Shown here: in pieces, positions 3,509 through 32,019 of the stretch
How positions within the stretch are numbered: position 1 is the first letter of the stretch
How the letters are laid out: each line of letters opens with the position of its first letter
DNA from: a virus
IMG/VR virus record: IMGVR_UViG_3300033991_000109
Location: 1-32,019 of that record
Direction: 5' to 3' (one strand)
Length of the DNA stretch: 32,019 nucleotides
The notes under the pieces: generated by a model
Databases searched by the model: none
What the model was told of the DNA's origin: nothing
Seen by the model: the letters and a program-made list of their open reading frames with translations, nothing else
Made by a program: the position numbers and the translations under genes

Positions 3509-3727
3509 ATGGTCTTCCAGAAGACAAACATAATTATTGAGATAGCAAAGTCCTCACGAAGTACTTGTCATTTGTGTGGAGACCAAATACATAAGGGAAG
3601 ACCAAGAATGGGTGTAGGTGATTATACTGGTTCATATGAGTTCTTCTGTGAGGAGTGTGCGAAGGAAATACTTAAGGAGAGATTGAAGCAACTGAAAGAA
3701 ATGATAAAGAATGCTGGTGTTAGGTGA
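3509..3727 (+). CDS. PARP-type-like zinc finger protein
   Basis: The start at 3509 follows GGGGGAG. The frame is open further upstream but lies inside the DJ-1 gene. The 72-residue protein has C20, C23, C47 and C50. The surrounding pattern AKSSRSTCHLCGDQIHKG then R-x-R-M-G resembles the N-terminal half of PARP-type zinc fingers, which bind DNA breaks, with the usual His replaced by Cys. A basic helix follows. DNA binding is an inference from this resemblance. Confidence 0.6.
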   Translation: MVFQKTNIIIEIAKSSRSTCHLCGDQIHKGRPRMGVGDYTGSYEFFCEECAKEILKERLKQLKEMIKNAGVR

Positions 3728-3984
3728 TGACATTGGAGATAGACCTTGAGTTTATTTTCAGATGGAGAGAAAGAATGAACATGAATTTTGATAACAACGA
3801 TGAAGACAGGGCTGCTGCCATTGATATGAGCTACGAAGTGATGGAAACATATATAGAAGCCATACTGGAAAGAGAAAGGTGTAAAACACCAGAAGGCTTA
3901 TCGACCGATGCAAAACAAAGATATGATGCGGCACAAATAATAATGAAAGATTTCCTTGAGATAAAGAATTTGCTGGAGGACTAA
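3727..3984 (+). CDS. hypothetical helical protein
   Basis: This is a protein of about 85 residues, largely alpha-helical and acidic. AGGTGAT (3722-3728) overlaps the ATG at 3727, so the TTG at 3733 or GTG at 3724 could be the true start. The upstream stop overlaps as TGATG. No motif is recognised. Confidence 0.55.
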   Translation: MTLEIDLEFIFRWRERMNMNFDNNDEDRAAAIDMSYEVMETYIEAILERERCKTPEGLSTDAKQRYDAAQIIMKDFLEIKNLLED

Positions 3985-3986
3985 TT

Positions 3987-4145
3987 ATGGGACAACAAAC
4001 AATAACCCTAACCCTCGACCGTGAGACCAAGAGAATGGTAAGATACAACAACAATGAGACCGAAGGGAATGCCACCTATTACTTCCCGAAAGTGTGGTTT
4101 AAGGATGGAGTTCCTGAAGTCGTAACTCTCACACTAGAGTGGTAA
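3987..4145 (+). CDS. 52-residue beta-rich protein
   Basis: This short gene has a clear GGAGGA six bases before the ATG. The product alternates hydrophobic and polar residues (starting ITLTLDRETKRMVRY and ending VVTLTLEW), typical of a small single-domain beta protein. It is not recognised. Confidence 0.6.
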   Translation: MGQQTITLTLDRETKRMVRYNNNETEGNATYYFPKVWFKDGVPEVVTLTLEW

Positions 4146-4181: not shown

Positions 4182-4358
4182 ATGGACAGATGTGAGAAAT
4201 GTGGGAGTGATATCCCTGGATTCCCTAAGACATACTTGAAGCTGCGCTATGTGAAGATTTTAGACCAAGCAGGAAGAGAAATCAAATGTCAGTGGCTCTG
4301 TATCAGATGTCGTGGAATCCTGAGAAAACAAGGATTAACTATCCGAATGGTGATATGA
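4182..4358 (+). CDS. zinc-ribbon mini-protein
   Basis: The 58-residue product has CEKCGSD at its start and CQWLCIRC about 30 residues later, making a four-cysteine site. It overlaps the next gene by ATGA at 4355-4358, indicating translational coupling. Its function is unknown. Confidence 0.6.
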   Translation: MDRCEKCGSDIPGFPKTYLKLRYVKILDQAGREIKCQWLCIRCRGILRKQGLTIRMVI

Positions 4359-4660
4359 TGGTTATCACTAAAGAAGAGTTCGAGGAAAGAAGAATCAACC
4401 CTAACATACAAAGAATAGGCAAGAATCAAGCGAAATTATTGGATATTCTACGGAAGGACCTTAGTAAAGCATGGTCACAAGCAGAACTACAAAAGAAACT
4501 GCATATTGAGTATATGTCTGCAGTTAATTACGCTTTGCATGCACTTCAGAAAAAAGGTCTAATCGAAAGTAAAATAGTCGAGGGAACTATCTACTGGAGG
4601 GCGATAGATGAAAACGTTCCTGGGGTCGTACTCGAAGATTCAAGAGATAGTAAAACATAA
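4355..4660 (+). CDS. winged-helix DNA-binding protein
   Basis: The ATG at 4355 is preferred because it overlaps the upstream TGA. The open frame continues to 4286 but lies inside the previous gene. The 101-residue protein carries a winged helix at about residues 24-85: helix (QAKLLDILRK), helix (SQAELQKKL), recognition helix (AVNYALHALQKKGLIES) and a wing ending in IYWRAI. It is the first of a run of wHTH proteins to 6759. It may be a transcription regulator. Confidence 0.7.
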   Translation: MMVITKEEFEERRINPNIQRIGKNQAKLLDILRKDLSKAWSQAELQKKLHIEYMSAVNYALHALQKKGLIESKIVEGTIYWRAIDENVPGVVLEDSRDSKT

Positions 4661-4862: not shown

Positions 4863-5013
4863 AGCTGACATGTACAAAGGGTGGTTCGGACTGATTTTGC
4901 TGATGGTGATGATAGTTGTATTTCTGCCCACTGGGATAGCTAGTATGTGTTGTTTGTTTGTTATCATGGTGATATTCTTTGTAACAATACTCATATCATT
5001 TGGAGTTGCATAA
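4855..5013 (+). CDS. small two-helix membrane protein
   Basis: From the ATG at 4855 the product has 52 residues, with two hydrophobic segments (about residues 9-24 and 27-50) that would span the membrane as a hairpin. It overlaps the upstream gene by eight bases, and the start signal is weak. The function is unknown. Confidence 0.5.
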   Translation: MDKADMYKGWFGLILLMVMIVVFLPTGIASMCCLFVIMVIFFVTILISFGVA

Positions 5014-5015
5014 TA

Positions 5016-5276
5016 ATGACGGAAAAATTATATGCAAAGGTAGTTGTCCAGTCTATGCGCATGCTGGAAACAAACCAACTCGTTGCCGAGGGATATGTCG
5101 AAATTAATAAGCGCAAAATTCCCTGGGATGCTGTCATTAATCAGAAAATGGTGAGGTTTAACAGTGAACAAATGGAATTCCCTAAGATGGAGAAGGAGTT
5201 AAGGGAAATTGTCCTGTCCACAATCGGACAGGTGAACATTCCAGCGGTCAAAACGTTCACAGTGCAAAAAGGGTGA
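5016..5276 (+). CDS. hypothetical protein
   Basis: The ATG at 5016 follows the upstream stop directly, and the frame is open to 4947 inside the membrane-protein gene. The 86-residue product is alpha/beta with no cysteine cluster. It is the last gene of a unit, since a hairpin (5272-5292) and a new TATA box follow. It is not recognised. Confidence 0.6.
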   Translation: MTEKLYAKVVVQSMRMLETNQLVAEGYVEINKRKIPWDAVINQKMVRFNSEQMEFPKMEKELREIVLSTIGQVNIPAVKTFTVQKG

Positions 5277-5296: not shown

Positions 5297-5304
5297 TTTA
5301 AATA
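5297..5304 (+). promoter_or_regulatory. archaeal TATA box for 5333 unit
   Basis: TTTAAATA lies about 33 bases before the ATG at 5333, in a strongly AT-rich stretch. Initiation about 25 bases downstream would leave a very short leader. The GGTGAT before the ATG would sit at the transcript's 5' edge. Confidence 0.45.
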
Positions 5305-5332: not shown

Positions 5333-5572
5333 ATGCGTAGGAGGTACTCAGAGGAGGAGATGCAAGAAGCGGAAAATAGAGCTAAGCGGAGAAATCAAAA
5401 GAGAAGGGAACAATGTTTTGCATGCAGGTTTCACGAACCTTTAAGTGAACCTGTTGAAAAGAGAAAGTGTACGAATAAAAAGGCGAAAGGAATTGTCTCA
5501 AAGGGTGATTCTTGTCCATTCTTCGAGAGAAGATGGCCAGAGAACTTAACGCCTGTAGAACTGGAGGAATGA
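5333..5572 (+). CDS. basic Cys-containing protein
   Basis: The 79-residue product has a highly basic, helical N-terminus (residues 1-26). It then has CFACRFHEP, a Cys near residue 46 and CPFF near residue 61, a plausible zinc or Fe-S site. AGGTGAT precedes the ATG. The stop overlaps the histone start as ATGA, so the two are probably co-translated. It may bind nucleic acid. Confidence 0.6.
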   Translation: MRRRYSEEEMQEAENRAKRRNQKRREQCFACRFHEPLSEPVEKRKCTNKKAKGIVSKGDSCPFFERRWPENLTPVELEE

Positions 5573-5790
5573 GTGTGGGAGAATTAAAATTTCAGACTAT
5601 TAAAAATGCCATGACGCATTACACAGGGATGAAAATCTCGGATAAGTCAGTGAGGGTCTTCACGGAGATAGTTGAAAGCTTCGTGAAAGAGATGGCTGAA
5701 CAATCTGCGAAGTTTGCGGGACATGCAAAAAGACAGACTATCCGAGAGGAGGATGTTCTTCTTGCGAGAGAAGTCGTAAAACGTCCATGA
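5569..5790 (+). CDS. archaeal-type histone-fold protein
   Basis: The ATG at 5569 is chosen for its GGAGG signal and ATGA overlap. This gives 73 residues, close to the 65-70 of archaeal histones. Helix 1 is about residues 5-15, loop 1 KIS 22-24, the long helix 2 about 25-52, loop 2 with R55-x-T57 53-58, and helix 3 with D62 59-70. The loop 2 arginine-threonine and helix 3 aspartate match the conserved R-T/D features of the HMf family. Such proteins form dimers that wrap DNA. In a virus genome it may compact viral DNA or alter host chromatin. It sits among winged-helix regulators. Confidence 0.85.
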   Translation: MSVGELKFQTIKNAMTHYTGMKISDKSVRVFTEIVESFVKEMAEQSAKFAGHAKRQTIREEDVLLAREVVKRP

Positions 5791-5804: not shown

Positions 5805-6089
5805 ATGCCCATTGACATGAGTAAATTTAGCGAGGGTGCAGCTCCCAAGAGAAAGAAGCTGCAGATTAACATTATGAAGATATTGCAGAAAAACCCTGAT
5901 AAAGCAGTTTCATCTGTGGATTTCGAGAGAATATTAAATGCAAGGAGACAGGCAATCAATCAGGCTTTGAGGTCGTTAGAAAACAAAGGAATGGTGGAAA
6001 GGGCATATATTAAAGATGGAGCGCGAAATGTGACTTTCGTGACTATAAGGGTTGAATATATTAAGATTGATATCTCAATGATGCTTTAG
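5805..6089 (+). CDS. winged-helix DNA-binding protein
   Basis: The start follows GGAGGGAG. The 94-residue protein has a basic N-terminus and a winged helix at about residues 20-80: MKILQKNPDKAVSSVDFERI, then a recognition helix (RRQAINQALRSLENKGMVER) and a wing. It is directly downstream of the histone and probably co-transcribed. It is likely a regulator, and its target is unknown. Confidence 0.7.
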   Translation: MPIDMSKFSEGAAPKRKKLQINIMKILQKNPDKAVSSVDFERILNARRQAINQALRSLENKGMVERAYIKDGARNVTFVTIRVEYIKIDISMML

Positions 6090-6097
6090 GTGATGTG

Positions 6098-6355
6098 ATG
6101 AGTCTTGAAAGAGCTTTGCAGATAGTAAAAACACTTGAAGAACACAAAGCCCTAGGGGGTTTTAGTGTTGACGAGATTGCTCAAGAGCTGGGTCAGTTTC
6201 CCAGTGATGTTGAACAAGAGTTCAAAAGCCTCCAAAAAGTTGGGGCTATTAAATGTTACATGTTTGAGGGTAAACTATATGCTGTCTATGAAAAGGCACT
6301 CACTACATCGGAGTATCCTGAAGAGACAAAAAAGACAGACATAATGTTTATATGA
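6098..6355 (+). CDS. winged-helix-like protein
   Basis: AGGTGAT ends four bases before the ATG at 6098, and the adjacent GTG at 6095 is an alternative. The 85-residue product has a helix-turn-helix at about residues 20-65 (FSVDEIAQELG then DVEQEFKSLQKVGAIKCY) and a short wing. It is part of the same DNA-binding cluster as the histone. Confidence 0.6.
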   Translation: MSLERALQIVKTLEEHKALGGFSVDEIAQELGQFPSDVEQEFKSLQKVGAIKCYMFEGKLYAVYEKALTTSEYPEETKKTDIMFI

Positions 6356-6489: not shown

Positions 6490-6759
6490 ATGTGTCCGAT
6501 AGAGTTAGGAGAGTTCGAGAAGGGCAAGGAGCCCGATGCTGTAAAGGGGTCGACCGTGAAGCCAGCTGTTGAGAAGTTTCTCGCAGAGAACAGCGACAAT
6601 GCCTACACCACAAGGGAGATATCAGAGGCAATCGATGCGAACAAGGCAACTGTGAACCACACTGTTCGCAAGCTTGTGGAAGAGGGGAAAGTCGAGAGAC
6701 GCTCTGTCAGCGGGCTCATCTACAACAGGTGGTGCGGCGGGGAACCCAGCGAAGAGTAG
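6490..6759 (+). CDS. winged-helix DNA-binding protein
   Basis: The ATG at 6490 has GGAGG eight bases upstream and its own TATA box. The frame stays open to 6352 with no signal there. The 89-residue product has a wHTH at about residues 25-80: VKPAVEKFLAENSD, TTREISEAIDANKATVNHTV, RKLVEEGKVERR, then a wing. Its coding sequence is visibly more GC-rich than its neighbours, so it may be a recent acquisition. It is the last protein gene before a 390-bp non-coding stretch. Confidence 0.65.
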   Translation: MCPIELGEFEKGKEPDAVKGSTVKPAVEKFLAENSDNAYTTREISEAIDANKATVNHTVRKLVEEGKVERRSVSGLIYNRWCGGEPSEE

Positions 6760-6898: not shown

Positions 6899-6909
6899 AT
6901 TTACTTATT

Positions 6910-6980
6910 AGCATGGTAGAGTAATGGTATCTCGTAGGCCTCATGAGCCTAAGAAACGTGGTTCGATTCCCGTCCATGCT
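6910..6980 (+). tRNA. tRNA with CAU anticodon (Met or Ile2)
   Basis: The 71-nt cloverleaf has a perfect 7-bp acceptor (6910-6916 with 6974-6980), TA at positions 8-9 and a three-pair D stem. The D loop contains GG, and a perfect 5-bp anticodon stem carries loop CTCATGA, so the anticodon is CAT. The T loop is TTCGATT, but its stem forms five pairs only if one T is bulged. CCA is not encoded. It could be elongator tRNA-Met or tRNA-Ile read after C34 modification. The irregular T stem suggests either a divergent viral tRNA or early decay. Confidence 0.75.
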
Positions 6981-7045
6981 ATCTGGCATTCGGTTGTTGG
7001 GAACGTGCGATGCAGGTCCACTTTCTAATAATCGGCCAAATGAGT

Positions 7046-9700: not shown

Positions 9701-9940
9701 TTGCCTAAAGTTATGGTGTATCCAGATGGAGCTATAATAATGGATTATGGCGGTGTGGGAGTATATGATAGGATTGATATGTCACCGTGCAGGATGTTTG
9801 AAATCTCTATTCAAACGTATATTGGGATTCAGAAAAAGGCAATAAACATCTTCATGAGGCACAGCCAAACATTGATGTATGTTTCCAAGATAGAGGAAAG
9901 TAAAGGAATTAAGTTAGATGCCAATCACGTACTATATTAG
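9701..9940 (+). CDS. hypothetical protein (TTG start)
   Basis: A TTG at 9701 preceded by GGGTGAT is the only start that fits. The 79-residue product is predominantly beta at the N-terminus (VMVYPDGAIIMDYGG) and helical later. No known motif is seen. Confidence 0.55.
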   Translation: MPKVMVYPDGAIIMDYGGVGVYDRIDMSPCRMFEISIQTYIGIQKKAINIFMRHSQTLMYVSKIEESKGIKLDANHVLY

Positions 9941-9949
9941 GTGGTAGAG

Positions 9950-10075
9950 ATGACAGTTGCTGAGATAGGAAGAACTATAGTATGTCCACGATGTGGCAGA
10001 CAGTATCGGTCGTGGCTGCCATATAAGATTGAAAGAAAGTGTTTATCGTGCGGGGAACAGTGGATGGAGGAATAG
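9950..10075 (+). CDS. 41-residue zinc-ribbon protein
   Basis: CPRCGRQY and, about 15 residues later, CLSCGEQW form a minimal zinc ribbon. AGGTGG precedes the ATG at 9950. It is one of many such mini-proteins in this region. Confidence 0.6.
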   Translation: MTVAEIGRTIVCPRCGRQYRSWLPYKIERKCLSCGEQWMEE

Positions 10076-12048: not shown

Positions 12049-13224
12049 CTATTCATCTTTCTCGAGTACTTTCACAAGAGTTGCAGGACGTCCGCCTTTC
12101 AATCCCGACTTTTCCTGAATCAGAGTAATGCGTCCTTGTCTCTTAAGAAGCTCCAGTATCTGAGTTGATTGACTATACTCAAGACCAAAGTCTGTTAATC
12201 GGTTCTTAACCTGTGTGATGGTACAAAGGTCCATTTCTCTTACAACATTGAAAACCTCAGTGGTTTCAGCACCCTTCTTGATATCCATTCGCCAGCCATG
12301 AATCTTAGAAAACATTTCACCTAATGTAGGGTCCATTGCAATATGTAACTTAGAATCCCCACCATTTTGAGTGGCCATTGCATATCCCGCTGCTACCCTC
12401 TCATATAACATCTCCTCGAAGTGAGGAATATGAAGTCTATCTAGCTTTGCGTAGATACTCTTATCAAATATTACCTTTTCCACACTCTTTGACGTATCAA
12501 CAATCTTCTTAAGGTTCTGTCTCAAATTATGTAACGTTGTAGTACTAGGGAAAGACGTCTTCGCTAACCGTCTGCTTGCTTTAATTTCCTCGGACTCTGC
12601 TCTAGTAGGTACAAAATATATGAATATAAATCTTCTTCCTAAACCACTCGTTAGATTGAACCTTGCTGGCTGACTTCCTGTGAATAAACTCATATCAGTG
12701 ATGTACTGTATCTTACCTAGAGCCAGTCGTTTAATACAATATCCAGAGTCAAGGGCAGTTAACATAGCGCTATCCAAATTAACACTGTGGTCTTGTTTCA
12801 TAGAGTTCGTCAAAACTGCAAATTCATCGATTCCAAGGAGGCCTTCCCTATGGTCATAAGCAGCCCCATACTGTTTAACAGGCTCTCCATTAACTACCTT
12901 AATAGTTCCCGTAAAACCAGCTTCCGTCATTGCACCTTCAAACCCTGTCTGAATATGTTCACACCCACCAACAATACTAGTGGGTCCATCGAGAAACTTT
13001 TGTAGCATCAATGTCTTCATATATCCTGGTGGTGCACAAAAGAAAACATGAACACGCAAGTTACCTAATCTTCCGTGCTCTAAGAAAAACTCCCGCTTTC
13101 TGTTTTCCAAGTTTAATAAATGTGTGCCTATTGAGCAAATAAAAGGAGGAGCAAACCGTGATGCGAATGCTACCTTGCATTGGTCAAGGTAACTTAAAGA
13201 ATTGTTATAAAGGTCATCTTGCAT
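12049..13224 (-). CDS. MCM-like AAA+ replicative helicase, short form
   Basis: This AAA+ ATPase of about 391 residues has the order typical of MCM. The Walker A loop is CAPPGYMKTL, Walker B is GLLGIDEF, and a sensor-1-like TGSQPARF comes before a GRRFIFIYF segment that matches the MCM arginine-finger SRFDLIF. A C-terminal winged helix follows (about residues 325-390). The N-terminal DNA-binding and hexamerising domain of cellular MCM (about 250 residues) is missing. The first Gly of Walker A is Ala and the usual Ser is Thr. Its likely role is unwinding viral DNA. A TTG at 13233 overlapping the upstream stop is an alternative start. Confidence 0.75.
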   Translation of the reverse strand: MQDDLYNNSLSYLDQCKVAFASRFAPPFICSIGTHLLNLENRKREFFLEHGRLGNLRVHVFFCAPPGYMKTLMLQKFLDGPTSIVGGCEHIQTGFEGAMTEAGFTGTIKVVNGEPVKQYGAAYDHREGLLGIDEFAVLTNSMKQDHSVNLDSAMLTALDSGYCIKRLALGKIQYITDMSLFTGSQPARFNLTSGLGRRFIFIYFVPTRAESEEIKASRRLAKTSFPSTTTLHNLRQNLKKIVDTSKSVEKVIFDKSIYAKLDRLHIPHFEEMLYERVAAGYAMATQNGGDSKLHIAMDPTLGEMFSKIHGWRMDIKKGAETTEVFNVVREMDLCTITQVKNRLTDFGLEYSQSTQILELLKRQGRITLIQEKSGLKGGRPATLVKVLEKDE

Positions 13225-13229
13225 CGAAA

Positions 13230-13904
13230 TCAATCTCTGTTCATCAGGTTGTAAATCAGCTGTGCAGTTTCAGGACCGATACCTTCAACACTCTTCAACT
13301 GTTCGATATCCGCAAGACAAACTCCCTTAAGGGTTTTGAACCTATCAAAAAGTCTCTTTGCTTTAGAGCGGGTCAACCCAGGTACAGTTCTTTGCAACAT
13401 CTTCTGCGGGTCATACATCTCGTACTTAGCAGCAAGAGTTCTCTCTTCCCCCCATTTACCTTCACTTATCTTAGTGCACATTCTATGAGCCACTTCAATA
13501 AGGGTCTTATCATCGGGAAACCACATTACATTAATTCTTTCTCTAACGGTCAAACTTGCAATAGTTCCATATACAACATTAGGGTTAATCTGCATGTTCA
13601 ATTGTTGTTTGAACTTCCATTGTAATTCATCCAAAGAGCCACTGATAAAAAGAAACGGAATCTCATGCAGTTGTTTCAATCTTTTAACCTGTTCAAAGAT
13701 TCGTTTACTCTGAATACTTTGAACCAGGTCATTAATGGCTTTCCGCTCTATTCCAACAACCTCGGATGCAGGTTTTGTATTCCTTCTCAATACAATATCT
13801 GCATTCAATGCAGTAACTCTGAAGTCAATACCTTTCCCTTTAACCAAACTAACGAACTTTGGTTTTTCTCTACTGTCAATCAAAAATTCCCAACCGCGTT
13901 CCAT
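13230..13904 (-). CDS. XPF/ERCC4-family structure-specific nuclease
   Basis: The 224-residue protein has an ERCC4 nuclease domain with D10 in IDSRE and GIERKAINDLVQSI (E53, R54, K55, D59). This is the ERKxxxD signature of XPF, Mus81 and archaeal Hef. The C-terminus (about 165-224) has tandem helix-hairpin-helix segments (VPGLTRSKAKRLF and VEGIGPETAQLI). These enzymes cut branched or flap DNA 5' to junctions and act in fork repair. It is the first gene of a two-gene operon with the helicase. Confidence 0.9.
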   Translation of the reverse strand: MERGWEFLIDSREKPKFVSLVKGKGIDFRVTALNADIVLRRNTKPASEVVGIERKAINDLVQSIQSKRIFEQVKRLKQLHEIPFLFISGSLDELQWKFKQQLNMQINPNVVYGTIASLTVRERINVMWFPDDKTLIEVAHRMCTKISEGKWGEERTLAAKYEMYDPQKMLQRTVPGLTRSKAKRLFDRFKTLKGVCLADIEQLKSVEGIGPETAQLIYNLMNRD

Positions 13905-14025: not shown

Positions 14026-14094
14026 GTAATAAGACAATATCTTGATGTCACCAAGTATAAAAGAAACCCACAATCAGTGTTTAAGGAGGTGTTT

Positions 14095-14322
14095 GTGACG
14101 GAAGAAAACGATGAAAAGGTAACGGTTGAGATAAAACCAGAGGATGAAGGAAAACCGTTAATCTTTTCAACTATCCTCGCCCAAAACGGGCAAGCAACCA
14201 TAAAGAAAGATATCCGGGAACGATTAAATCTTGAGCAAGGGGATACATTATATCTCAAGGTGTTGAAAGTGATTAATCCACAGGGAAAAACAACCTACGA
14301 GTCTGTGGAGACAATGCAGTAG
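14095..14322 (+). CDS. AbrB-like swapped-hairpin DNA-binding protein
   Basis: GTG at 14095 is chosen because GGAGGTG ends four bases upstream. The 75-residue product has the AbrB/MazE swapped-hairpin pattern at about residues 23-62: FSTILAQNGQATIKKDIRER then LNLEQGDTLYLKVLKV. Such dimers bind DNA as transition-state regulators or antitoxins, and no toxin partner is seen. As first gene after the divergent promoters, it may regulate both operons. Confidence 0.75.
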   Translation: MTEENDEKVTVEIKPEDEGKPLIFSTILAQNGQATIKKDIRERLNLEQGDTLYLKVLKVINPQGKTTYESVETMQ

Positions 14323-16392: not shown

Positions 16393-17130
16393 ATGCAGTA
16401 CTATGCTATTTCGCCGCTAAACGGATTAGATGTTGTTAAGAATTGTTCTCATTATCTTGTAGTAGCCCAGTGGTTGAAAAACCAAGCGTATAGAGTGTTT
16501 TTCAAATCGCGAGTTGCGGCAGGATGTCATCTGATTCTAGATAATGGAGCCTATGAGTTTGGAGAGGCAATGCCTGATGAGGAGTACTGGATGTACATCG
16601 GGCAAATGAACCCATCCATAGTGGTTGCACCTGATAAATTTCAGGATGGTCAGGAGACTGTAATGCGAGTAAACAAATTTCTGAACCAGATGGAAACTCA
16701 ATTTATGGATAATCGATTCGAGGTAATGGGCGTTCCACAAGGCAAAACAATCAGAGAATGGTTTATCTGTTTCGAGTATCTTTGCGAAATGGTTGATGTT
16801 ATTGGAATACCGACTGCACAGTTTGGAGATAGGACAGGGATTGTAAGGCAGTTTCTCAGCTCTAAGATTGATGATAAAAAGACACCGAGGATTCATTTAC
16901 TTGGTCTTTGGAACCCAACCGAGGTAATGCATTATCACGATGTGCCCCGGGTACAAAGTATTGATACAAGTATGCCTTTTAAGTATGCAGAAAAAGGGTT
17001 ATCGCTATTCGCGGAAAAAAAACCCCCTGCGGACTGGAAACTGGATTGGGAGAAGAGCTACAATGAGACGGAGTTGAAGTTAGCTGCAGGCAATCTCAAG
17101 ACTTTTATGGAGATGTGTAAAGGTGTGTGA
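16393..17130 (+). CDS. dpdA: TGT-like transglycosylase, DpdA-type (DNA 7-deazaguanine insertion)
   Basis: The 245-residue protein follows the order of motifs of the tRNA-guanine transglycosylase barrel. LILDNGAY (D50, like the TGT DSGGFQ site) comes first, then VVAPDKFQDG (80-86), MGVPQG (112-117, like GxVQGG), RIHLLGL (166-172, like HLLGxG) and SIDTSMPF (D191, candidate nucleophile). It lacks the TGT zinc site and any PUA domain, and is much shorter than archaeal ArcTGT. Phage DpdA proteins exchange guanine in DNA for preQ0-type bases. Genes for all preQ0 synthesis steps lie in the same strand block, and PolB follows at once (8-base overlap). DNA rather than tRNA as substrate is inferred. 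Confidence 0.75.
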   Translation: MQYYAISPLNGLDVVKNCSHYLVVAQWLKNQAYRVFFKSRVAAGCHLILDNGAYEFGEAMPDEEYWMYIGQMNPSIVVAPDKFQDGQETVMRVNKFLNQMETQFMDNRFEVMGVPQGKTIREWFICFEYLCEMVDVIGIPTAQFGDRTGIVRQFLSSKIDDKKTPRIHLLGLWNPTEVMHYHDVPRVQSIDTSMPFKYAEKGLSLFAEKKPPADWKLDWEKSYNETELKLAAGNLKTFMEMCKGV

Positions 17131-24375: not shown

Positions 24376-24581
24376 AAAGGGTAAGAATGACCTATAAGCA
24401 GATGATGTCACAAAAAAGGCTCACAGAATATATTCAAGCACCTACTTGGGAGGAACAGCTAAAAAAGCGACCCCCATTAGGAACTCCAGAATATACTGAG
24501 TGGCTTAACGGCTTAACACCAGAACAATTTGAAAGAGAATTCGAAGAAAGAAGAAAAAAGACCCAGGAGGAGGTAAAATGA
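24372..24581 (+). CDS. hypothetical basic helical protein
   Basis: This is a 69-residue protein with no cysteines, a basic N-terminus and an acidic/basic C-terminal helix. A central segment RPPLGTPEYTEWLNGLTPEQ is rich in Pro and Thr. ATGA overlaps join it to both neighbours, so it is translated together with QueD. It is not recognised. Confidence 0.6.
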   Translation: MKRVRMTYKQMMSQKRLTEYIQAPTWEEQLKKRPPLGTPEYTEWLNGLTPEQFEREFEERRKKTQEEVK

Positions 24582-25081
24582 AGTTAGTTACCAAGAGAAC
24601 GTTTGCAGCTAGTCACAGGCTGCCGGACCACATGGGAAAGTGTAAGGGACTGCATGGTCATAACTGGAAGGTACGAGTTATGATGGAAGGAGAACAAATA
24701 ATCAAACCGGGAGACCCGCAGAATGGGATGTTGGTAGATTTTCAAAATGTCAAAGGCATCATAGATGCCCTCGACCACTCAGATTTAAATATACTGTTTA
24801 ATGAAGATGAACCACCAACAGCAGAGAATATAGCTCGATACCTTGGATACCAGTTGTACAGACTACAGGATAACATACACCGGGTGATTGTCCACATATG
24901 GGAGAGTGAAGATTCATTTATTGAATGGGATTCAGAAACAGATTTGGAACTCGATTACAAGATAAAAGAATCACTTACTGAAAGTCTATCCGATGTGAAA
25001 ACTCCCGAGGATGTTTCGAAACAAAGAGAGGCAAACAAAGATATTTTGAATGGTGATAGTGATGAAAGCGAAAGTCAATGA
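24578..25081 (+). CDS. queD: 6-carboxytetrahydropterin synthase
   Basis: The QueD core fills about residues 1-120 of a 167-residue product. Zinc ligands are H13 (FAASHRL), H26 and H28 (LHGHNW), and C22 is the catalytic cysteine. DFQNVKGIIDALDHSDLN, PTAENIA and ESEDSFIEW match the family. It turns 7,8-dihydroneopterin triphosphate into 6-carboxytetrahydropterin, the second step to preQ0. An acidic, probably disordered tail of about 45 residues is unusual. AGGAGG precedes the start, and the end overlaps queE. Confidence 0.95.
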   Translation: MKLVTKRTFAASHRLPDHMGKCKGLHGHNWKVRVMMEGEQIIKPGDPQNGMLVDFQNVKGIIDALDHSDLNILFNEDEPPTAENIARYLGYQLYRLQDNIHRVIVHIWESEDSFIEWDSETDLELDYKIKESLTESLSDVKTPEDVSKQREANKDILNGDSDESESQ

Positions 25082-25709
25082 AATATTTATATCGCTACAA
25101 GGCGAAAGTACCTGGATGGGAAGACCTACGGTGTTCGTTAGGTTTGCAGGATGTAATTTAAATTGCCCTTGGTGCGATACGCAGTATGCCAAGAAGGAGT
25201 TTAAAGAGATGGATATAGAAAGTGTAGTAGAAGAAATAAAGGAATATAACTGCAGGTACATCTGTTTCACTGGTGGAGAACCACTATTACAGTATGAAGA
25301 GCTCATAAATATTTCGGAACATTTCCCAGGGTATCATATCAGCGTAGAGACAAATGGCTCAATAGAGATTTTACAAAGACCAAACATTCAGAAGTTTGTC
25401 ATGGATATCAAATGCCCCTCATCTATGGTGAACAAAGACTATTACAGAGTTGCGCTGAAGAATGTAGAGAACTTAAACCATGAGGATGAGGTAAAATTTG
25501 TGGTTGCAACACAATCAGACTTATCGTTCATTGGGGAGTTATTAGATGGTTTGCCTAAAGAGATAGTAAAGTTGATATCTCCTGCATGGCCAGGAACACT
25601 AACACTTCCTGATTTAGCTGTTCAGATAGTAGACTGGAGAACACATAATGTTTTGCTACAGATACAACAGCATAAAATCATTTGGGGGACAGACAAACGT
25701 GGCGTGTAA
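25062..25709 (+). CDS. queE: 7-carboxy-7-deazaguanine synthase (radical SAM)
   Basis: ATG at 25062 follows GGTGAT. The 215-residue enzyme has the CxxxCxxC radical-SAM site CNLNCPWC (C31, C35, C38), FTGGEP (69-74) for SAM binding, and N-terminal FISLQGES typical of QueE. It rearranges 6-carboxytetrahydropterin to 7-carboxy-7-deazaguanine. It overlaps queD by 20 bases, so the two are coupled. Confidence 0.95.
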   Translation: MKAKVNEIFISLQGESTWMGRPTVFVRFAGCNLNCPWCDTQYAKKEFKEMDIESVVEEIKEYNCRYICFTGGEPLLQYEELINISEHFPGYHISVETNGSIEILQRPNIQKFVMDIKCPSSMVNKDYYRVALKNVENLNHEDEVKFVVATQSDLSFIGELLDGLPKEIVKLISPAWPGTLTLPDLAVQIVDWRTHNVLLQIQQHKIIWGTDKRGV

Positions 25710-25818
25710 GGGATGGCCAGATTGGAATAATAGAGGTTTTCGCTTATGGGTAATACAGATAGTCATAGCCTTCGGAGTGATGATTCTATGCCTGATAGCA
25801 TACACATACTGCGGGTAG
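25699..25818 (+). CDS. 39-residue single-pass membrane protein
   Basis: A GTG at 25699, nine bases after GGGGGA, opens a frame that overlaps queE by 11 bases and the next gene by 31. The product has an amphipathic N-terminus (WPDWNNRG) and then a clear transmembrane stretch of about 22 hydrophobic residues, ending YTYCG. The frame covers the gap between the two genes. Its function is unknown. Confidence 0.45.
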   Translation: MACKGWPDWNNRGFRLWVIQIVIAFGVMILCLIAYTYCG

Positions 25819-26282
25819 ATTGGTCTGCAGTTTTAATGTTATCTAAAGCTTTAGCACTCTGGGCTCAAAATCAGAATTTCACACAGATAGTTGCAGTAGC
25901 AAAAGGAGGTTTAATTCCGGGGGTCATCATTTCAAACCTGCTGGATTTACCTCTTGATGTTATAAAAGCAAAGAGAAAATCATCAGAACATTGTTCTCTT
26001 AGTCTTATGCAATACTGGGTTACGTATCCGGAATATGCCTACCTGCTGGTAGTAGATGATATTATCGATGAGGGAGAAACAATGGCATCAATTGCTTCTA
26101 TGTTACGTAGTCAAGAGGCAAGATTTCAAACAGTATCTATGCTGTATAAGAAACATTCAACATATAAGCCAAGATACTACGTACAAGACGTACCAAATAA
26201 ATCGCTGGTAATTTTTCCATGGGAAGATGAATTTAAGGAGAAAAAGAGATTGGAGGAATGGAATGAAAGACATTCAAAATGA
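25788..26282 (+). CDS. purine-type phosphoribosyltransferase
   Basis: ATG at 25788 follows GGAGTGAT, and the frame is open to 25746. The 164-residue protein has the PRPP-binding loop YLLVVDDIIDEGETM (about 102-116) and an upstream AVAKGGLIPGV (about 36-46). The layout resembles xanthine/guanine or hypoxanthine phosphoribosyltransferases. It could recycle guanine released from DNA by base exchange, or feed GTP to FolE2, but both ideas are inference from position within the preQ0 genes. Confidence 0.85.
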   Translation: MPDSIHILRVDWSAVLMLSKALALWAQNQNFTQIVAVAKGGLIPGVIISNLLDLPLDVIKAKRKSSEHCSLSLMQYWVTYPEYAYLLVVDDIIDEGETMASIASMLRSQEARFQTVSMLYKKHSTYKPRYYVQDVPNKSLVIFPWEDEFKEKKRLEEWNERHSK

Positions 26283-27132
26283 GCCAGATAGTCGTGGTGT
26301 TGCAATTAAGAAGGTAGGAATCTCGAAATGTCAGTTACCTTTTAGTTTAAAGGATAAGAGAGCAGGAACCCAAATGACAGTAGGAGAATGGAAGGTATCT
26401 GTAAAGTTAAAACACGATGCTCGTGGAACACATATGTCAAGGTTTATGGAAGTTCTACAACAGCATAGACCAGCGCAAATAAGTCTTAATTATTTACAGA
26501 CCATAGTAAAACCACAGATAAAGACGGCTTTAGGTGCCCAGAAGGCAGAAATCGAGGTTTCGTTTACGTATTTCATTTGGAAAGAAACACCAGTTACACA
26601 TAAGGATTGTGACCTTCCTGTCTATTGCAGGTTTGTGGTTTCCGATTATCATAAGCCTGTGCTTGAGGTAAAAACACCTATAACCACATTATGTCCATGC
26701 TCAAAGGAAATAAGTATACATGGAGCACATAATCAGCGTTCTTGGGTAACTATTCAAGTCATCTCACAAGCTTGGTTATGGATAGAGGACCTCGTATTAA
26801 TTGCGGAAGAAGCTGCGTCTTGTCCAATCTGGCCTTTACTTAAACGGCCCGATGAAAAGTATGTCACTGAAAAAGCGTTCGATAGCCCCCGATTCGTAGA
26901 AGATGTGGTTCGTGAAGTAGCTCTCGGAATAAGAAGGATTGCACCTAAGTATAATATCACCTGGTATAAAGTCATTTGTGAAAATGAAGAATCAATTCAT
27001 GTGCACAATGCATTTGCTGAACATGAGGAAGATATTGAGCTAAAGCCGTGGCAAAAGGCTGTTATGGCTCCTGGTCAGACAAAGGTGGATGAACATGCCG
27101 ATATGTCAAAAGTGTCACCTCAGCGCCAATGA
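26263..27132 (+). CDS. folE2: GTP cyclohydrolase IB
   Basis: ATG at 26263 follows GGAGGAATGG. The 289-residue protein carries the family's signatures: DARGTHMSRF near residue 52, PITTLCPCSKEIS (C144, C146) and HGAHNQRSW (153-161). FolE2 opens the GTP imidazole ring to give 7,8-dihydroneopterin triphosphate, the first step of preQ0 synthesis. It is the FolE type that can use metals other than zinc. It overlaps both neighbouring genes. Confidence 0.95.
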   Translation: MKDIQNEPDSRGVAIKKVGISKCQLPFSLKDKRAGTQMTVGEWKVSVKLKHDARGTHMSRFMEVLQQHRPAQISLNYLQTIVKPQIKTALGAQKAEIEVSFTYFIWKETPVTHKDCDLPVYCRFVVSDYHKPVLEVKTPITTLCPCSKEISIHGAHNQRSWVTIQVISQAWLWIEDLVLIAEEAASCPIWPLLKRPDEKYVTEKAFDSPRFVEDVVREVALGIRRIAPKYNITWYKVICENEESIHVHNAFAEHEEDIELKPWQKAVMAPGQTKVDEHADMSKVSPQRQ

Positions 27133-27760
27133 AAACATCAAGATGGTCCGAGGAAAAGGACCGTTAGATGCAGATTTGATGCTAGTAGGCGAAGCTCCCG
27201 GGTACGAAGAAAATAAAGCTGGAGAGCCTTTTATTGGGTCAGCAGGAAGATTACTAACGAAACACCTCAATGAGGTAGGTATCTCTAGAGAGGACACATA
27301 CATCACGAATGTTGTAAAATGTCAACCTCCGGGAAATAGAAACCCTACTCATAGCGAAATGATGGCGTGTAAGGAACACCTTTTAAGAGAGATTGTTTCC
27401 GTAAGGCCGAAGATAATAGTACTCATGGGAAGAATAGCTATTAAAGCACTCAGTGGAAGAACGGGGTCTATGAAGGATTTGCATGGTGTAGTTTCACATA
27501 TGACTATTGCTATCAAAGATGATGTGGACTCACTTCCTGTTGAAGTTGTTGTGGTTCTTACATATCACCCGGCTGCAGAGCTTTATCATGAGTTTTACAC
27601 CCAGTTTATTCAGGAAGACTGGAAGAAGATAAAACAACTCTTGGACGAGAAGAAAAAAGAAAAGAAAGTAACTGTTCAGATTCCACTCAATGTGGATAAT
27701 GAAAAGCAGTTAAAGGAACAAAAGAAATTTCTGGAGGGTTCAGATGAGCGTAGAACATAA
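27095..27760 (+). CDS. family-4 uracil-DNA glycosylase (4Fe-4S)
   Basis: ATG at 27095 follows AAGGTGG. The 221-residue protein has C4 and C7 plus C76 and C92 for the 4Fe-4S cluster. The uracil pocket motif is GEAPGYEENKAGEPFIGSAG (32-51), the strand motif ITNVVKCQPPGNRNPT, and the loop THPAAEL. It removes uracil from DNA. It shares the operon with dUTPase and a B-family polymerase. Archaeal-type family-B polymerases are known to stall at template uracil. The basic, Glu/Lys-rich C-terminal 50 residues are an extension. Confidence 0.9.
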   Translation: MPICQKCHLSANENIKMVRGKGPLDADLMLVGEAPGYEENKAGEPFIGSAGRLLTKHLNEVGISREDTYITNVVKCQPPGNRNPTHSEMMACKEHLLREIVSVRPKIIVLMGRIAIKALSGRTGSMKDLHGVVSHMTIAIKDDVDSLPVEVVVVLTYHPAAELYHEFYTQFIQEDWKKIKQLLDEKKKEKKVTVQIPLNVDNEKQLKEQKKFLEGSDERRT

Positions 27761-28523
27761 GCAAGCACAATTTAAGGATTCGAGTCGCAGGGCAGTTGTC
27801 CTGATGTCCGGTGGTTTAGATTCAACAACCATCGTGGGGAATTTGTTGATGAGAAAGTTCAAGGTGTTTCCGCTGTCTATAAACTATGGGCAGCGACATG
27901 CCGTTGAGATGGAAGCAATGAAATCTATCGTCCAGTGGTATCAAGACCAAAAACAACCTGTTGAAAACGTATTTGAGTTAAAGCTACCGGACCTTGCAAG
28001 AATAGGTGGTAGTGCATTGACAGACACATCAATTGATGTACCTGATAAGATGATAGAGGGAATACCAGTTACTTATGTACCGGGGCGCAATACAATCTTC
28101 CTATCGATAGCATTAGCTTATGCTGAAGTGAAAAAGTGCAAGAGTGTAGCTATCGGTGTAAACGCACTTGACTACAGCGGATACCCGGATTGTAGGCCAG
28201 AATATATTAAGGCAGTGGCTGAGGTAGCCAGATTATCGTCTAAGAGGGCTGTTGAAGGCAAACCCATCTTGATTGATACCCCAATTATCACAATGAAAAA
28301 GTCTGAGATAATTAAGATGGGAATGACATGTAGACCAGCAGTTCCATACCACTTGACCTGGAGTTGTTATAATCCTCAGGAAATCAAGGGCACCCTTGGT
28401 GAGAAGCTAAAGGGTGTTAAAAAGTGGAAACCATGTGGTACCTGTGATAGCTGTACACTTAGAGCGAAGGGATTTAAGGAAGCTGACACCGAGGACCCTG
28501 CATTAAAAGAAACAACGGTTTAA
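27744..28523 (+). CDS. queC: 7-cyano-7-deazaguanine synthase
   Basis: The 259-residue protein has the ATP-pyrophosphatase loop SGGLDS (22-27) and YVPGRNTIFLS. The family zinc site is C208, C231, C234 and C237 (PCGTCDSC). QueC converts 7-carboxy-7-deazaguanine to preQ0 with ATP and ammonia. It ends the rightward operon and overlaps the UDG gene by 17 bases. There is no QueF, ArcS or GAT-QueC in the window, so preQ0 itself is the last product that can be inferred here. Confidence 0.96.
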   Translation: MSVEHKQAQFKDSSRRAVVLMSGGLDSTTIVGNLLMRKFKVFPLSINYGQRHAVEMEAMKSIVQWYQDQKQPVENVFELKLPDLARIGGSALTDTSIDVPDKMIEGIPVTYVPGRNTIFLSIALAYAEVKKCKSVAIGVNALDYSGYPDCRPEYIKAVAEVARLSSKRAVEGKPILIDTPIITMKKSEIIKMGMTCRPAVPYHLTWSCYNPQEIKGTLGEKLKGVKKWKPCGTCDSCTLRAKGFKEADTEDPALKETTV

Positions 28524-28937: not shown

Positions 28938-30050
28938 TTACACCTGCACTAGGGTAACAACTACCTTAACCGTATCCGTAACCGCCTTTTCATCAACATC
29001 AATAATAACATTCGTTGTTCCTGCAGGCGGTGAAACTGTATCTACTTTCAAGACTGTTATATCCTCAATCCACTCATCGCTTTCATCCTCTTCTGCGTCA
29101 TACACTGAATCTATTATCTTAGTATAAATTACATCTGACCCTGCACCAAGACCCATTATGTAATTCACTATAGCATCCTCAATTTGGTCATGCGCATCAG
29201 CGGGCATTTTTGTGCTATCAACAGTCACAGTGATATCTACATATATGTTCTGCTGCACCACCTCATACCAATCCACCGGAATACCTGCAGGTCTAGTCTC
29301 CTCAATAGCATCATCAACATCAGTATTAGGCTTAGTAACCCCATACACATATAATGTAGCTTTGTGAATGTCCAAATCTTCAAACGCACTAACGCTGATA
29401 ACGCCGCTTACTTCTAAAACTGCCAAACGAATGGCTTCCAGTGTTCCTCGAGCTAATGATATCAAAGCACCCTTACACCTAGCCCTAAACTCATCATCTG
29501 GTTCAACATCTTCTCCGCCCAATGTTGCACTTGCATTTGTAACTGAAGCTACACCAGCGATAGGAGTCTCTAGCTGTGTGATTGTGTTAGCTGCTAAATT
29601 ACCATTAGCCCCAGGCAATACAGCAGTTACATTCACAGTAGCTGTTCCCCCTGCAATAGTACAAAGAACATCGGTTGTAAACTTAATAACTTCATCGCCA
29701 GTGGTTTGAACCACAGTTCCTGCAGGAATAACAGTGCCATTAATCCCAGTGAAGGTAACCTGCCCGATAGCCTGTGAAGCTTCATTTCGAGTTTGTCCTA
29801 TAAGAGTAGCTACCCTATCTAGAGACTCTCCTGTTGCATAATCTACATAAGCGCTATAGTAAAAAGCTTCTGCCATCTCCCACAGTCTCTGCTCCTCTAA
29901 GGCTTGTACCTGTAATAGCTTCAGCATGGGGCTTGTATCCGTTAAATCGATATCATCCCCAAAAAGCTCTTTCGCCTTGGTCTTTTTCTCTTCTAAAATC
30001 TGGCTATATGTCTTAACGACAAACCCACTAAGCCCAACTCCGAATGTCAT
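28938..30050 (-). CDS. baseplate J-like protein
   Basis: This 370-residue protein matches the baseplate J (Mu gp47) family. The N-terminus has YSQILEEKKTKAKELFG then DLTDTSPMLKLL. TGESLDRVATLIGQTRNEA (about 75-93) follows, then the beta-rich central part ATLGGEDVEPDDEFRARCK and LARGTLEAIRLAVLEVSGV. The last third is the usual beta-domain (VDITVTVDS). It forms the wedge tips of contractile or long-tail baseplates. A GAGGTGA signal precedes the ATG. Confidence 0.92.
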   Translation of the reverse strand: MTFGVGLSGFVVKTYSQILEEKKTKAKELFGDDIDLTDTSPMLKLLQVQALEEQRLWEMAEAFYYSAYVDYATGESLDRVATLIGQTRNEASQAIGQVTFTGINGTVIPAGTVVQTTGDEVIKFTTDVLCTIAGGTATVNVTAVLPGANGNLAANTITQLETPIAGVASVTNASATLGGEDVEPDDEFRARCKGALISLARGTLEAIRLAVLEVSGVISVSAFEDLDIHKATLYVYGVTKPNTDVDDAIEETRPAGIPVDWYEVVQQNIYVDITVTVDSTKMPADAHDQIEDAIVNYIMGLGAGSDVIYTKIIDSVYDAEEDESDEWIEDITVLKVDTVSPPAGTTNVIIDVDEKAVTDTVKVVVTLVQV

Positions 30051-30059
30051 CTTCTCACC

Positions 30060-30434
30060 TCACTCCAGAACTATTAACGTTTTAACTTCCTCATCTGACA
30101 GTAACAAAATGGAAACCGACCATTTTTCCTTCCATACCTTATTCTCAGAGTACTGTTCCACCACAATACTCAGCACATCCTTAGTGTAAATATACTTAAA
30201 AGCAGTCTCCTCAAGTTCGCGCTTTTTAACCTTCTCGGTATCAATCTCGGTAACTGTTGCGAAATCAAATCCGAACTCAGGTGCAAATATATCGTCACCC
30301 AAGTGAGTTCTATACAATACCTTAAGGTCCTGTTGAACTTTCTCGCTATCTTCCACTAGAGATATATTTTTCAATTCATTGATGACTATATCCATTTGGT
30401 CATCGAGCTCAAATGTCTTTCCATAAACCATCAT
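30060..30434 (-). CDS. gp25-like baseplate wedge protein
   Basis: The 124-residue product sits between spike and baseplate J genes, the usual place for GPW/gp25. Its core QQDLKVLYRTHLGDDIFAPE then FGFDF matches the L-x-T-x-x-G-x-x-x-F-x-P-x-x-G pattern. Its N-terminus MMVYGKTFELDD is also typical. The ATG overlaps the spike gene's stop. Confidence 0.8.
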   Translation of the reverse strand: MMVYGKTFELDDQMDIVINELKNISLVEDSEKVQQDLKVLYRTHLGDDIFAPEFGFDFATVTEIDTEKVKKRELEETAFKYIYTKDVLSIVVEQYSENKVWKEKWSVSILLLSDEEVKTLIVLE

Positions 30435-31156
30435 GTCACCTCCACCTTATATTGAGACCCTGCAACATCCACTACCAACCAAACCTTACCGGAAACAGTA
30501 TCCCTCCATATTGCCTGCGTATTTGTAGAAAGGTTAGGTTCAACAGCCTGGATGTACGTGGGCAAAACGGTACCACCGCCACCACCAGTTCCCCATTTGG
30601 ATGAAGACCCCTCGGAATGTCCCCATATTGCATTACCGTCTCTCCATAACATTCCATCTTCTGGTACAGAGGGCATTCCCCCTTTATCCATTAGCTTTAT
30701 TATAAATCCCATCTGAATTTTATCAGGGTCAAATACAATTATATCTCCCTCAGGTATTTCCCATCCTTCTTCTATTATCTCATTTGATGTTGCAAATCCG
30801 CCAAGGATAAATGCATCCTTATAATCGAATTGAAGTTCCTTCTCCAAGTTTCTCTTGACTACCAAATTTTTATCAATCAGAAGTTTATCCATCGACCATT
30901 TAGAGAACCCCGCTAGTACAACATCACCTACTTGTATTGGCATAAGAACAACTGAGGTTCCTCCTTTTGGAAATACCACAGGAACATTAAGAATCTTTAC
31001 ATAATTCGTTTGTTCAGGAGCTACCTTTACCCTGATATCACATGTCATCTCTTCTCTATGAACTATATCCACAATTGCAGGAACGAGGGTCCAAACTCCA
31101 GCGAGCCTCTTATCAATTAAATCCCAAACCCTTTTTGCGAGGCTTCTACCGCTCAA
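30431..31156 (-). CDS. Gp138/gpV-like baseplate spike protein
   Basis: A TTG at 31156 follows GGAGGAGGATGA. The 241-residue protein has an N-terminal helix, then an OB-like domain (about 20-120) reading VPAIVDIVHREEMTCDIRVK, VPVVFPKGGTSVVLMPIQVG, DVVLAGF. The end is glycine-rich (GTGGGGGT) and beta-rich. The arrangement matches Gp138 N-terminal-domain spikes that pierce the cell envelope. The stop overlaps the gp25-like start. Confidence 0.8.
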   Translation of the reverse strand: MSGRSLAKRVWDLIDKRLAGVWTLVPAIVDIVHREEMTCDIRVKVAPEQTNYVKILNVPVVFPKGGTSVVLMPIQVGDVVLAGFSKWSMDKLLIDKNLVVKRNLEKELQFDYKDAFILGGFATSNEIIEEGWEIPEGDIIVFDPDKIQMGFIIKLMDKGGMPSVPEDGMLWRDGNAIWGHSEGSSSKWGTGGGGGTVLPTYIQAVEPNLSTNTQAIWRDTVSGKVWLVVDVAGSQYKVEVT

Positions 31157-32019
31157 TAATCATCCTCCTCCCAGTACTCATCTTCAAATTCTATTGGAAT
31201 TCCCTCACGGAATGCTTGATAAGCGTCACTCTCGCTACTAATCTCCTTAACATTCACTTCAACGATGTGCTCTACATCTGTACTTTTGTATTTAAAGCTT
31301 TGAGTCTTATAAAACTGCAACTTTGGAGCATATGTATATATCACATCACCATATTGTTCAACTATCGGTGAGTATTCTACCAAAAAGATTGTATCCTTAT
31401 TAATCTTAGGCACAAGTAGCATTTTGACTACCCATTCATCTTTCTTTTCTCCTGTTGCTGCAGTATCTGCTTTGGTTACACTTAGTAATCCTGTTTTCGC
31501 GCTAACACGCAGCCCCGAAGGAAATGCATAATTCGTAGGCATTCCATAAAATAACCCATTTCTAATGTACCATTTCCATTTACCTACCCAAACATCAACT
31601 TCCTCAGTTTTATAATTACCATCCTTCTGCTTTACTTTCTTCTTTTGTTTTTCAGTTTTTCCCATTTTACTACTTATAATAGTATCAATCCATCGTTTAA
31701 TTGACATTCCAGTATGAATATAATATCTGTCTTCCTCTACTTTAAAATCTTCATCATCATAGATGTAACCTACTTGAACGGCAGTATATCCTACCAATGT
31801 CTTAATTACATCCGACCATTTGGTTCCTTTAACAAATGAATCGTCAACAGATACATTAAGTAAGTCTGACACTTGCTCCTTACAAACAAATTTAGTAATA
31901 TTATCCGGTCCATCCACACTTCTAATAATCTCCTGGATAGTGCCACTAAATATAACTCCATGATGCTCCAGATACCCACTATCAATGATAATATCCGAGT
32001 TCTCACCAAATAAATTTCC
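31153..32019 (-). CDS. baseplate hub protein (gp27/gpD-like), partial
   Basis: The frame is open through the right edge, so the N-terminus is outside. 288 residues are visible. The first visible part reads GYLEHHGVIFSGTIQEIIRS, like the F-x-G-x-I strand of hub proteins of the late-control D/XkdQ type. Positively charged beta regions and a WVGKWKWYIRNGLFYGM segment follow. It is directly upstream of the spike, where hub genes normally lie. Family assignment is by order and weak motif. Confidence 0.65.
   Translation of the reverse strand, partial: GNLFGENSDIIIDSGYLEHHGVIFSGTIQEIIRSVDGPDNITKFVCKEQVSDLLNVSVDDSFVKGTKWSDVIKTLVGYTAVQVGYIYDDEDFKVEEDRYYIHTGMSIKRWIDTIISSKMGKTEKQKKKVKQKDGNYKTEEVDVWVGKWKWYIRNGLFYGMPTNYAFPSGLRVSAKTGLLSVTKADTAATGEKKDEWVVKMLLVPKINKDTIFLVEYSPIVEQYGDVIYTYAPKLQFYKTQSFKYKSTDVEHIVEVNVKEISSESDAYQAFREGIPIEFEDEYWEEDDY

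Follow-up and report, generated by a model that had tools for sequence, protein, structure and literature searches.

Positions 5569-5790 (plus strand) of a 32,019-nt viral DNA stretch, analysed at its full length and referred to here as the window, encode a 73-residue archaeal-type histone-fold protein in a tailed virus that likely infects archaea. The assignment draws on Pfam, PDB sequence matches, an AF2 model, Foldseek and syntenic orthologs in two related viruses (G014 and G023), and the gene lies within a block of four-Cys and winged-helix protein genes that recurs among the relatives of the virus. The virus probably uses this histone to organise or control DNA inside the cell it infects. 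The reading we favour, with a probability of roughly one half, is that the protein is an intracellular regulator of viral chromatin or transcription whose dimers act on the viral genome with the partners encoded in the same block.

The match of the protein to histone-fold families is far beyond chance. The top Pfam family is CENP-S (PF15630; 1.5e-9, 38.6 bits, cut-off 28), and Histone (PF00125; 3.9e-9, 37.3 bits, cut-off 26.4) and CBFD_NFYB_HMF (PF00808; 3e-7, 31.0 bits, cut-off 21.4) likewise score above their curated cut-offs, as do CENP-T_C (3.9e-7) and TAF (1.2e-5). PDB sequence matches include the archaeal histones HPhA (1e-6) and HMfA (2.6e-6), which are aligned nearly over the full length (64 and 67 residues, respectively). 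The protein is short, tailless and single-domain, is basic with a pI of 9.5, and is the only histone match in the window. The initial annotation, made from the sequence, had described an archaeal histone pattern including the R-x-T loop and the aspartate of helix 3, and the open reading frame, the Pfam and PDB matches and residues R55, T57 and D62 all agree with it. A histone fold is also what AF2 predicts, and the best matches are archaeal histones and not other helical proteins.

The AF2 model, built with 11 viral homologues, has a mean pLDDT of 90.8 and a short-long-short arrangement of helices (residues 8-19, 25-52 and 60-70). Helix 3 is of full length, with 11 residues, and the chain ends three residues later. 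Foldseek matched the model to HPhA, HMfA, HMfB and HHoB at TM scores of 0.82-0.92 and 1.0-1.6 Å, and its superposition on HMfB gave TM scores of 0.86/0.92 and 1.1 Å. The closest structures, HPhA, HMfA and HMfB, are homodimeric archaeal histones, and NF-Y pairs are also found among the fold matches. Canonical nucleosomal histones carry a signature formed by an Arg in loop L2 and an Asp seven residues downstream (PMC13260811). This R-D clamp is present in the viral protein as R55 and D62, exactly seven residues apart, together with T57. Thus, R52, T54 and D59 of HMfB are kept as R55, T57 and D62, and further conserved positions are H49 (H52 in the viral protein) and K45 (K48), while K56 is replaced by R59 with its basic character retained. 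The roles of HMfB residues beyond the R-T-D signature are well established, H49 for example being a dimer-dimer contact. Other positions have changed, namely K53 to Q56 (the Lys of RKT), R19 to K22 (the L1 Arg) and R10 to N13, and the HMfB stacking residues K30/E34/E61/R65 correspond to E33/S37/L64/E68. The position aligned to the L1 glycine, which is required for hypernucleosome stacking, is T19, with G20 adjacent. Because the Lys and the L1 Arg are replaced, giving RQTI and KI in place of the complete RKT(V) loop and the L1 RV motif, we classify the protein as an archaeal-type histone-fold protein and not as a canonical HMf-type histone. Judging from these residues, folding, pairing and DNA contact through L1-L2 are expected, but a canonical stacked hypernucleosome would not necessarily form.

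Two candidate starts are considered for the gene, because a Shine-Dalgarno-like GGAGG (5563-5567, plus strand) is followed by an ATG at 5569, after a spacing of 1 nt, and by an in-frame GTG at 5575, after 7 nt, and either may be used. Initiation at the GTG would yield a 71-aa product whose N-terminus, MGELKF..., resembles the MGELPI... of HMfA.

The block begins with a gene (5333-5572) for a basic protein with four conserved Cys (CxxC...C...C), which had no match in Pfam and is probably zinc-binding. The end of this gene overlaps the histone ATG by four nucleotides (ATGA, 5569-5572). Downstream of the histone are three winged-helix protein genes on the same plus strand: whA (5805-6089), matching MarR_2 at 8.3e-6, just under the cut-off that its G014 ortholog exceeds; whB (6095-6355), matching phrog_1368 at 5e-5; and whC (6490-6759), a TrmB/MarR-like protein matching phrog_1687 at 5.6e-6. 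These matches are weak, yet consistent, and with the ATGA overlap they bear out the earlier placement of the histone between a basic Cys protein and wHTH genes with overlapping or closely spaced starts. Further upstream are another winged-helix protein (4286-4660, plus strand; LexA_DNA_bind at 5.9e-5, MarR-like), whose true start is probably near 4358 and which is 37% identical to the product of G014 positions 3572-4060 and present in G023 and G020, and, just before the block, a small conserved protein (5016-5276, plus strand; 28.6% identical to the product of G014 positions 4323-4580). Sequence inspection and a scan revealed an archaeal TATA-box-like TTTAAATA at 5297-5304 (plus strand), 36 nt upstream of the four-Cys start codon. 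In G020 the four-Cys gene is likewise preceded by such a box, ATATTTATATA, and none is present in G014 or G023. Transfer RNA genes occur nearby, with a tRNA-Met (CAT) at 6909-6983, just past the winged-helix genes of the window, and tRNA-Lys, tRNA-Ile and an unassigned tRNA near the block of G023.

Related viruses were found by a scan with an alignment of a DpdA-like protein and then by one with an alignment of a protein that has no family match and for which MCM-like is our working label; no relatives were found with PolB alone as the query, and whA as a query added no carriers. The 95-kb G014 (IMGVR_UViG_3300037011_000606) shares 18 proteins with the window, in matching order, on the replication side and is collinear in the tail module too, with identities of 53% for the MCM-like protein, 43% for PolB and 50% for baseplate J. 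Its block, at 4.6-6.1 kb and with its terminase at 55 kb, has the gene order of the window, namely the four-Cys protein (42% identical), histone (34%), whA (54%), whB (43.5%) and whC (58%). The G014 histone (77 aa, 4883-5116) matches the viral histone profile at 2.4e-15 and Pfam Histone at 5.9e-8. The more distant 87-kb G023 (MCM-like protein about 45% identical) encodes the four-Cys protein, a histone (1.2e-9 to the profile), whA and whB, with whC further on, and the 43-kb G020 encodes the four-Cys protein, a 73-aa protein beginning with MEFKYQTLKN..., whA, whB and whC. The block is therefore kept in all three relatives that reach the region, a count that excludes the remaining related contigs, which, from their ranges, appear to end before it. 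The proteins in the histone slot of the four viruses are only 19-35% identical to each other, and, compared pair by pair, the viruses usually differ more in the histone than in any other gene of the block.

The slot protein of G020 scores 10.0 bits with a profile of the three orthologs, a score that one in 3000 shuffled sequences reached. It had no Pfam histone match and no significant Foldseek match, and it is without the T and the clamp Asp of the R-x-T/D signature. Its AF2 model has the three-helix layout of the window histone. We dropped it as a demonstrated histone and treat it only as a divergent positional homologue, because the model is weak (66) and without a significant fold match.

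The carrier is a single 32-kb IMG/VR virus record (IMGVR_UViG_3300033991_000109), which encodes Baseplate_J (3.1e-40) and other baseplate genes (28938-32019, minus strand) far from the histone block, along with PolB, ribonucleotide reductase, an ERCC4 nuclease and a PD-(D/E)XK nuclease. It is a tailed virus, on the basis of these baseplate genes and of the terminase in the collinear G014. An archaeal host is likely, as suggested by the histone itself, by PolB, whose best named matches are haloarchaeal tailed viruses (24%), and by TATA-like boxes at three of 16 lead genes versus 0.54 at random positions. The window also encodes a likely pathway of DNA 7-deazaguanine modification (16393-17130 and 24578-28523), comprising a DpdA-like transglycosylase, 27-31% identical to phage proteins of which some are annotated as DpdA, and QueD, QueE, FolE2 and QueC, with a phosphoribosyltransferase and a family-4 uracil-DNA glycosylase located between genes of the pathway. 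An AbrB/MazE-like protein (14077-14322; 1.9e-4, below cut-off) precedes a conserved 370-aa protein without an assigned family. A 394-aa ATPase-like protein with APPGYMKT (12049-13233, minus strand), for which Pfam, PHROG, NCBIfam and named phages gave no convincing match, is 45-81% identical within the virus group and is a good marker gene for it. Positions 2545-2573, approximately, resemble a tRNA T-arm and 3' end (GAGGTTCGATTCCTC...CGCCA), for which Rfam gave no support and no complete tRNA was found.

Like HMfA/HMfB, HPhA and HHoB, the window histone is a single tailless fold (66-71 aa in these cellular proteins) with a full helix 3, R-x-T and the clamp Asp, but its gene is viral and located inside a regulator block. 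It further differs from the HMf type in having Q for the RKT Lys, KI for L1 RV, LKFQTIKN for the helix-1 LPxAPxxR and changed stacking residues. Tailed viruses of prokaryotes also encode the alpha3 'phage histones', which share the histone fold; however, they have a truncated helix 3 without R-x-T...D and a C-terminal tetramerisation domain (PMC11390915), whereas the window histone has an 11-residue helix 3, the motif and no extra domain, and thus falls outside alpha3. These were the only tailed-virus histones in a 2024 UniProt survey, in which nucleosomal histones from prokaryotic sources were exclusively archaeal (PMC11390915). The histones of giant viruses such as Marseillevirus and Medusavirus are also virus-encoded, and nearly all named histones among the best BFVD matches come from large eukaryotic DNA viruses. 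In the fold matches the giant-virus histones are 15-30% identical to the window protein, but they are of the eukaryotic type and occur as paralogs or fused doublets, in contrast to the single fold with best archaeal matches seen here. Borg elements carry archaeal-type histones as well, but they are not tailed viruses and their histones are accompanied by modifying enzymes (PMC12660748). A paper on archaeal tailed viruses makes no mention of histones (PMC8651126). In the openly licensed literature we found giant-virus, alpha3 and Borg histones described and no nucleosomal-type histones in archaeal tailed viruses; earlier reports may exist elsewhere.

A DNA-pattern scan combined with a profile search identified 11 other IMG/VR contigs encoding archaeal-type histones, all above the Pfam cut-off; seven of the 18 hits to the pattern HAG[RS]KT are not histones. 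The pattern HAKRxT, the window histone alone and an alignment of it with HMf/HPhA, used as IMG/VR queries, found no relatives. Terminase was detected in four of the 11 histone-bearing records. In a fifth record, L031 (1349-4417), a terminase and a portal-like gene are followed 5 nt later by the histone, a context unlike that in the window, and in L022 a Baseplate_J gene precedes it. Two related contigs of 152 and 85 kb (L023, 9795-10034, and L030, about 9800-9990) share the gene neighbourhood of the histone, which is convergent to a long gene of structural appearance and lies close to a ribonucleotide reductase. Among cultured viruses, Methanocaldococcus fervens tailed virus 1 (MFTV1) encodes a histone, QNO11499.1 (PF00808 at 4e-10), annotated as 'hypothetical protein' (MT711370.1, 21436-21720, corresponding to L033, 3004-3288). 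This too is an archaeal tailed-virus histone, but it is HmvA-like (3.5e-9 to 8bdk) and in a histone tree pairs with HmvA (96/95), apart from the window protein. The tree covers 71 columns with 14 of its 17 inner branches open, and it separates the window and G014 proteins from the remaining viral and cellular histones at moderate support (82/93). The phylogeny suggests more than one acquisition of histones by viruses. None of the cellular histones compared is more than about 32% identical to the window protein, and one scan of genome contigs found no close cellular relative; its only hit, L003 (Roseomonas), is a chance match within a long sensor-like protein (WSDEDVLLAREV). As to whether the gene is host-derived or virus-specific, a question raised by the initial annotation, it appears from these comparisons to be a virus-lineage gene of some age, whose origin the 71-column tree does not place.

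We hypothesize that histone homodimers form and assemble, perhaps into tetramers, through the helix-3 interface, and that the assembled histone would bend DNA or wrap it inside the infected cell. The likely target would be the viral genome, on which the histone would act with the winged-helix and four-Cys proteins of a block plausibly co-expressed as one operon, and the outcome would be to set which viral genes the archaeal transcription machinery can reach. A role in the infected cell is proposed because the gene is positioned in a regulator block and at a distance from packaging genes, and because the fold is kept with DNA-contact and stacking residues loosened. The fast divergence, the loss of T and Asp in G020 and the altered residues argue against wrapping as the essential job, since such divergence and loss would be unexpected if it were. 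A kept pairing surface with changed DNA-contact and stacking residues is also the profile of a capping or poisoning subunit, and the protein may instead form mixed dimers with host histones that open or block host chromatin. The fast divergence fits an arms race of this kind, but the conserved neighbours are DNA-binding regulators that are equally suited to self-regulation, and we regard interference with host chromatin as unlikely, though a serious rival. Another serious rival, and a less probable one, is a transcription cofactor of the NF-Y/TAF/CENP-S kind that does not wrap DNA and partners a winged-helix protein. CENP-S as the best Pfam family, the NF-Y pairs among the fold matches and a G020 block that is kept with R-x-T/D lost from its slot protein point in this direction, whereas the retention of R-x-T and the clamp Asp in G014 and the window, and best structural matches that are homodimeric, do not.

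A virion core protein, packaged with the genome and condensing viral DNA in the capsid, would be comparable to the histones of Marseilleviridae, which have been shown to package virion DNA. The basic nature of the protein and the histone directly after terminase and portal-like genes in the unrelated L031 are compatible with such a role, but the window has only one 73-aa histone gene, which, like its counterparts in every related virus examined, belongs to the regulator block and not to the head or tail module. Moreover, G014 has a terminase, and terminase motors pack bare DNA under pressure. The authors of an HFTV1 cryo-EM study do consider that the capsid of an archaeal virus might contain histone-like proteins (PMC12494034). 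Thus, of the first interpretation, the histone identity, the viral location and the placement in a regulator cluster, now seen as a block in three related viruses, hold, and packing of the viral genome has become doubtful, a shade more so than host interference, because the gene is far from head and packaging genes and a terminase-driven virus needs no capsid nucleosomes. Histone genes are common in archaea, two-thirds of which have them (PMC13260811), and a host gene without a viral role could have been caught by chance as contamination or a passenger. This is contradicted by synteny, as the histone occupies an equivalent position in related viruses, and baseplate, PolB and ribonucleotide reductase genes are on the same contig; with the low identity to cellular histones and the absence of a close relative in the genome-contig scan, we consider such capture extremely improbable.

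Virus-encoded histones with the nucleosomal signature were previously known from giant viruses of eukaryotes, and here they are found in tailed viruses, where one lineage keeps the gene in a conserved block and other carriers, the cultured MFTV1 among them, are scattered. The finding bears on the movement of histones between cells and viruses, and it makes testable whether infecting archaeal viruses form chromatin or subvert it, and whether order in archaeal virus capsids involves histones. We tentatively suggest that a lineage of archaeal tailed viruses may possess an operon dedicated to chromatin regulation, whose fast-evolving virus-specific histone and several winged-helix proteins would jointly build or remodel chromatin during infection, and that nucleosomal-type histones may also have been acquired independently by several other tailed-virus lineages.
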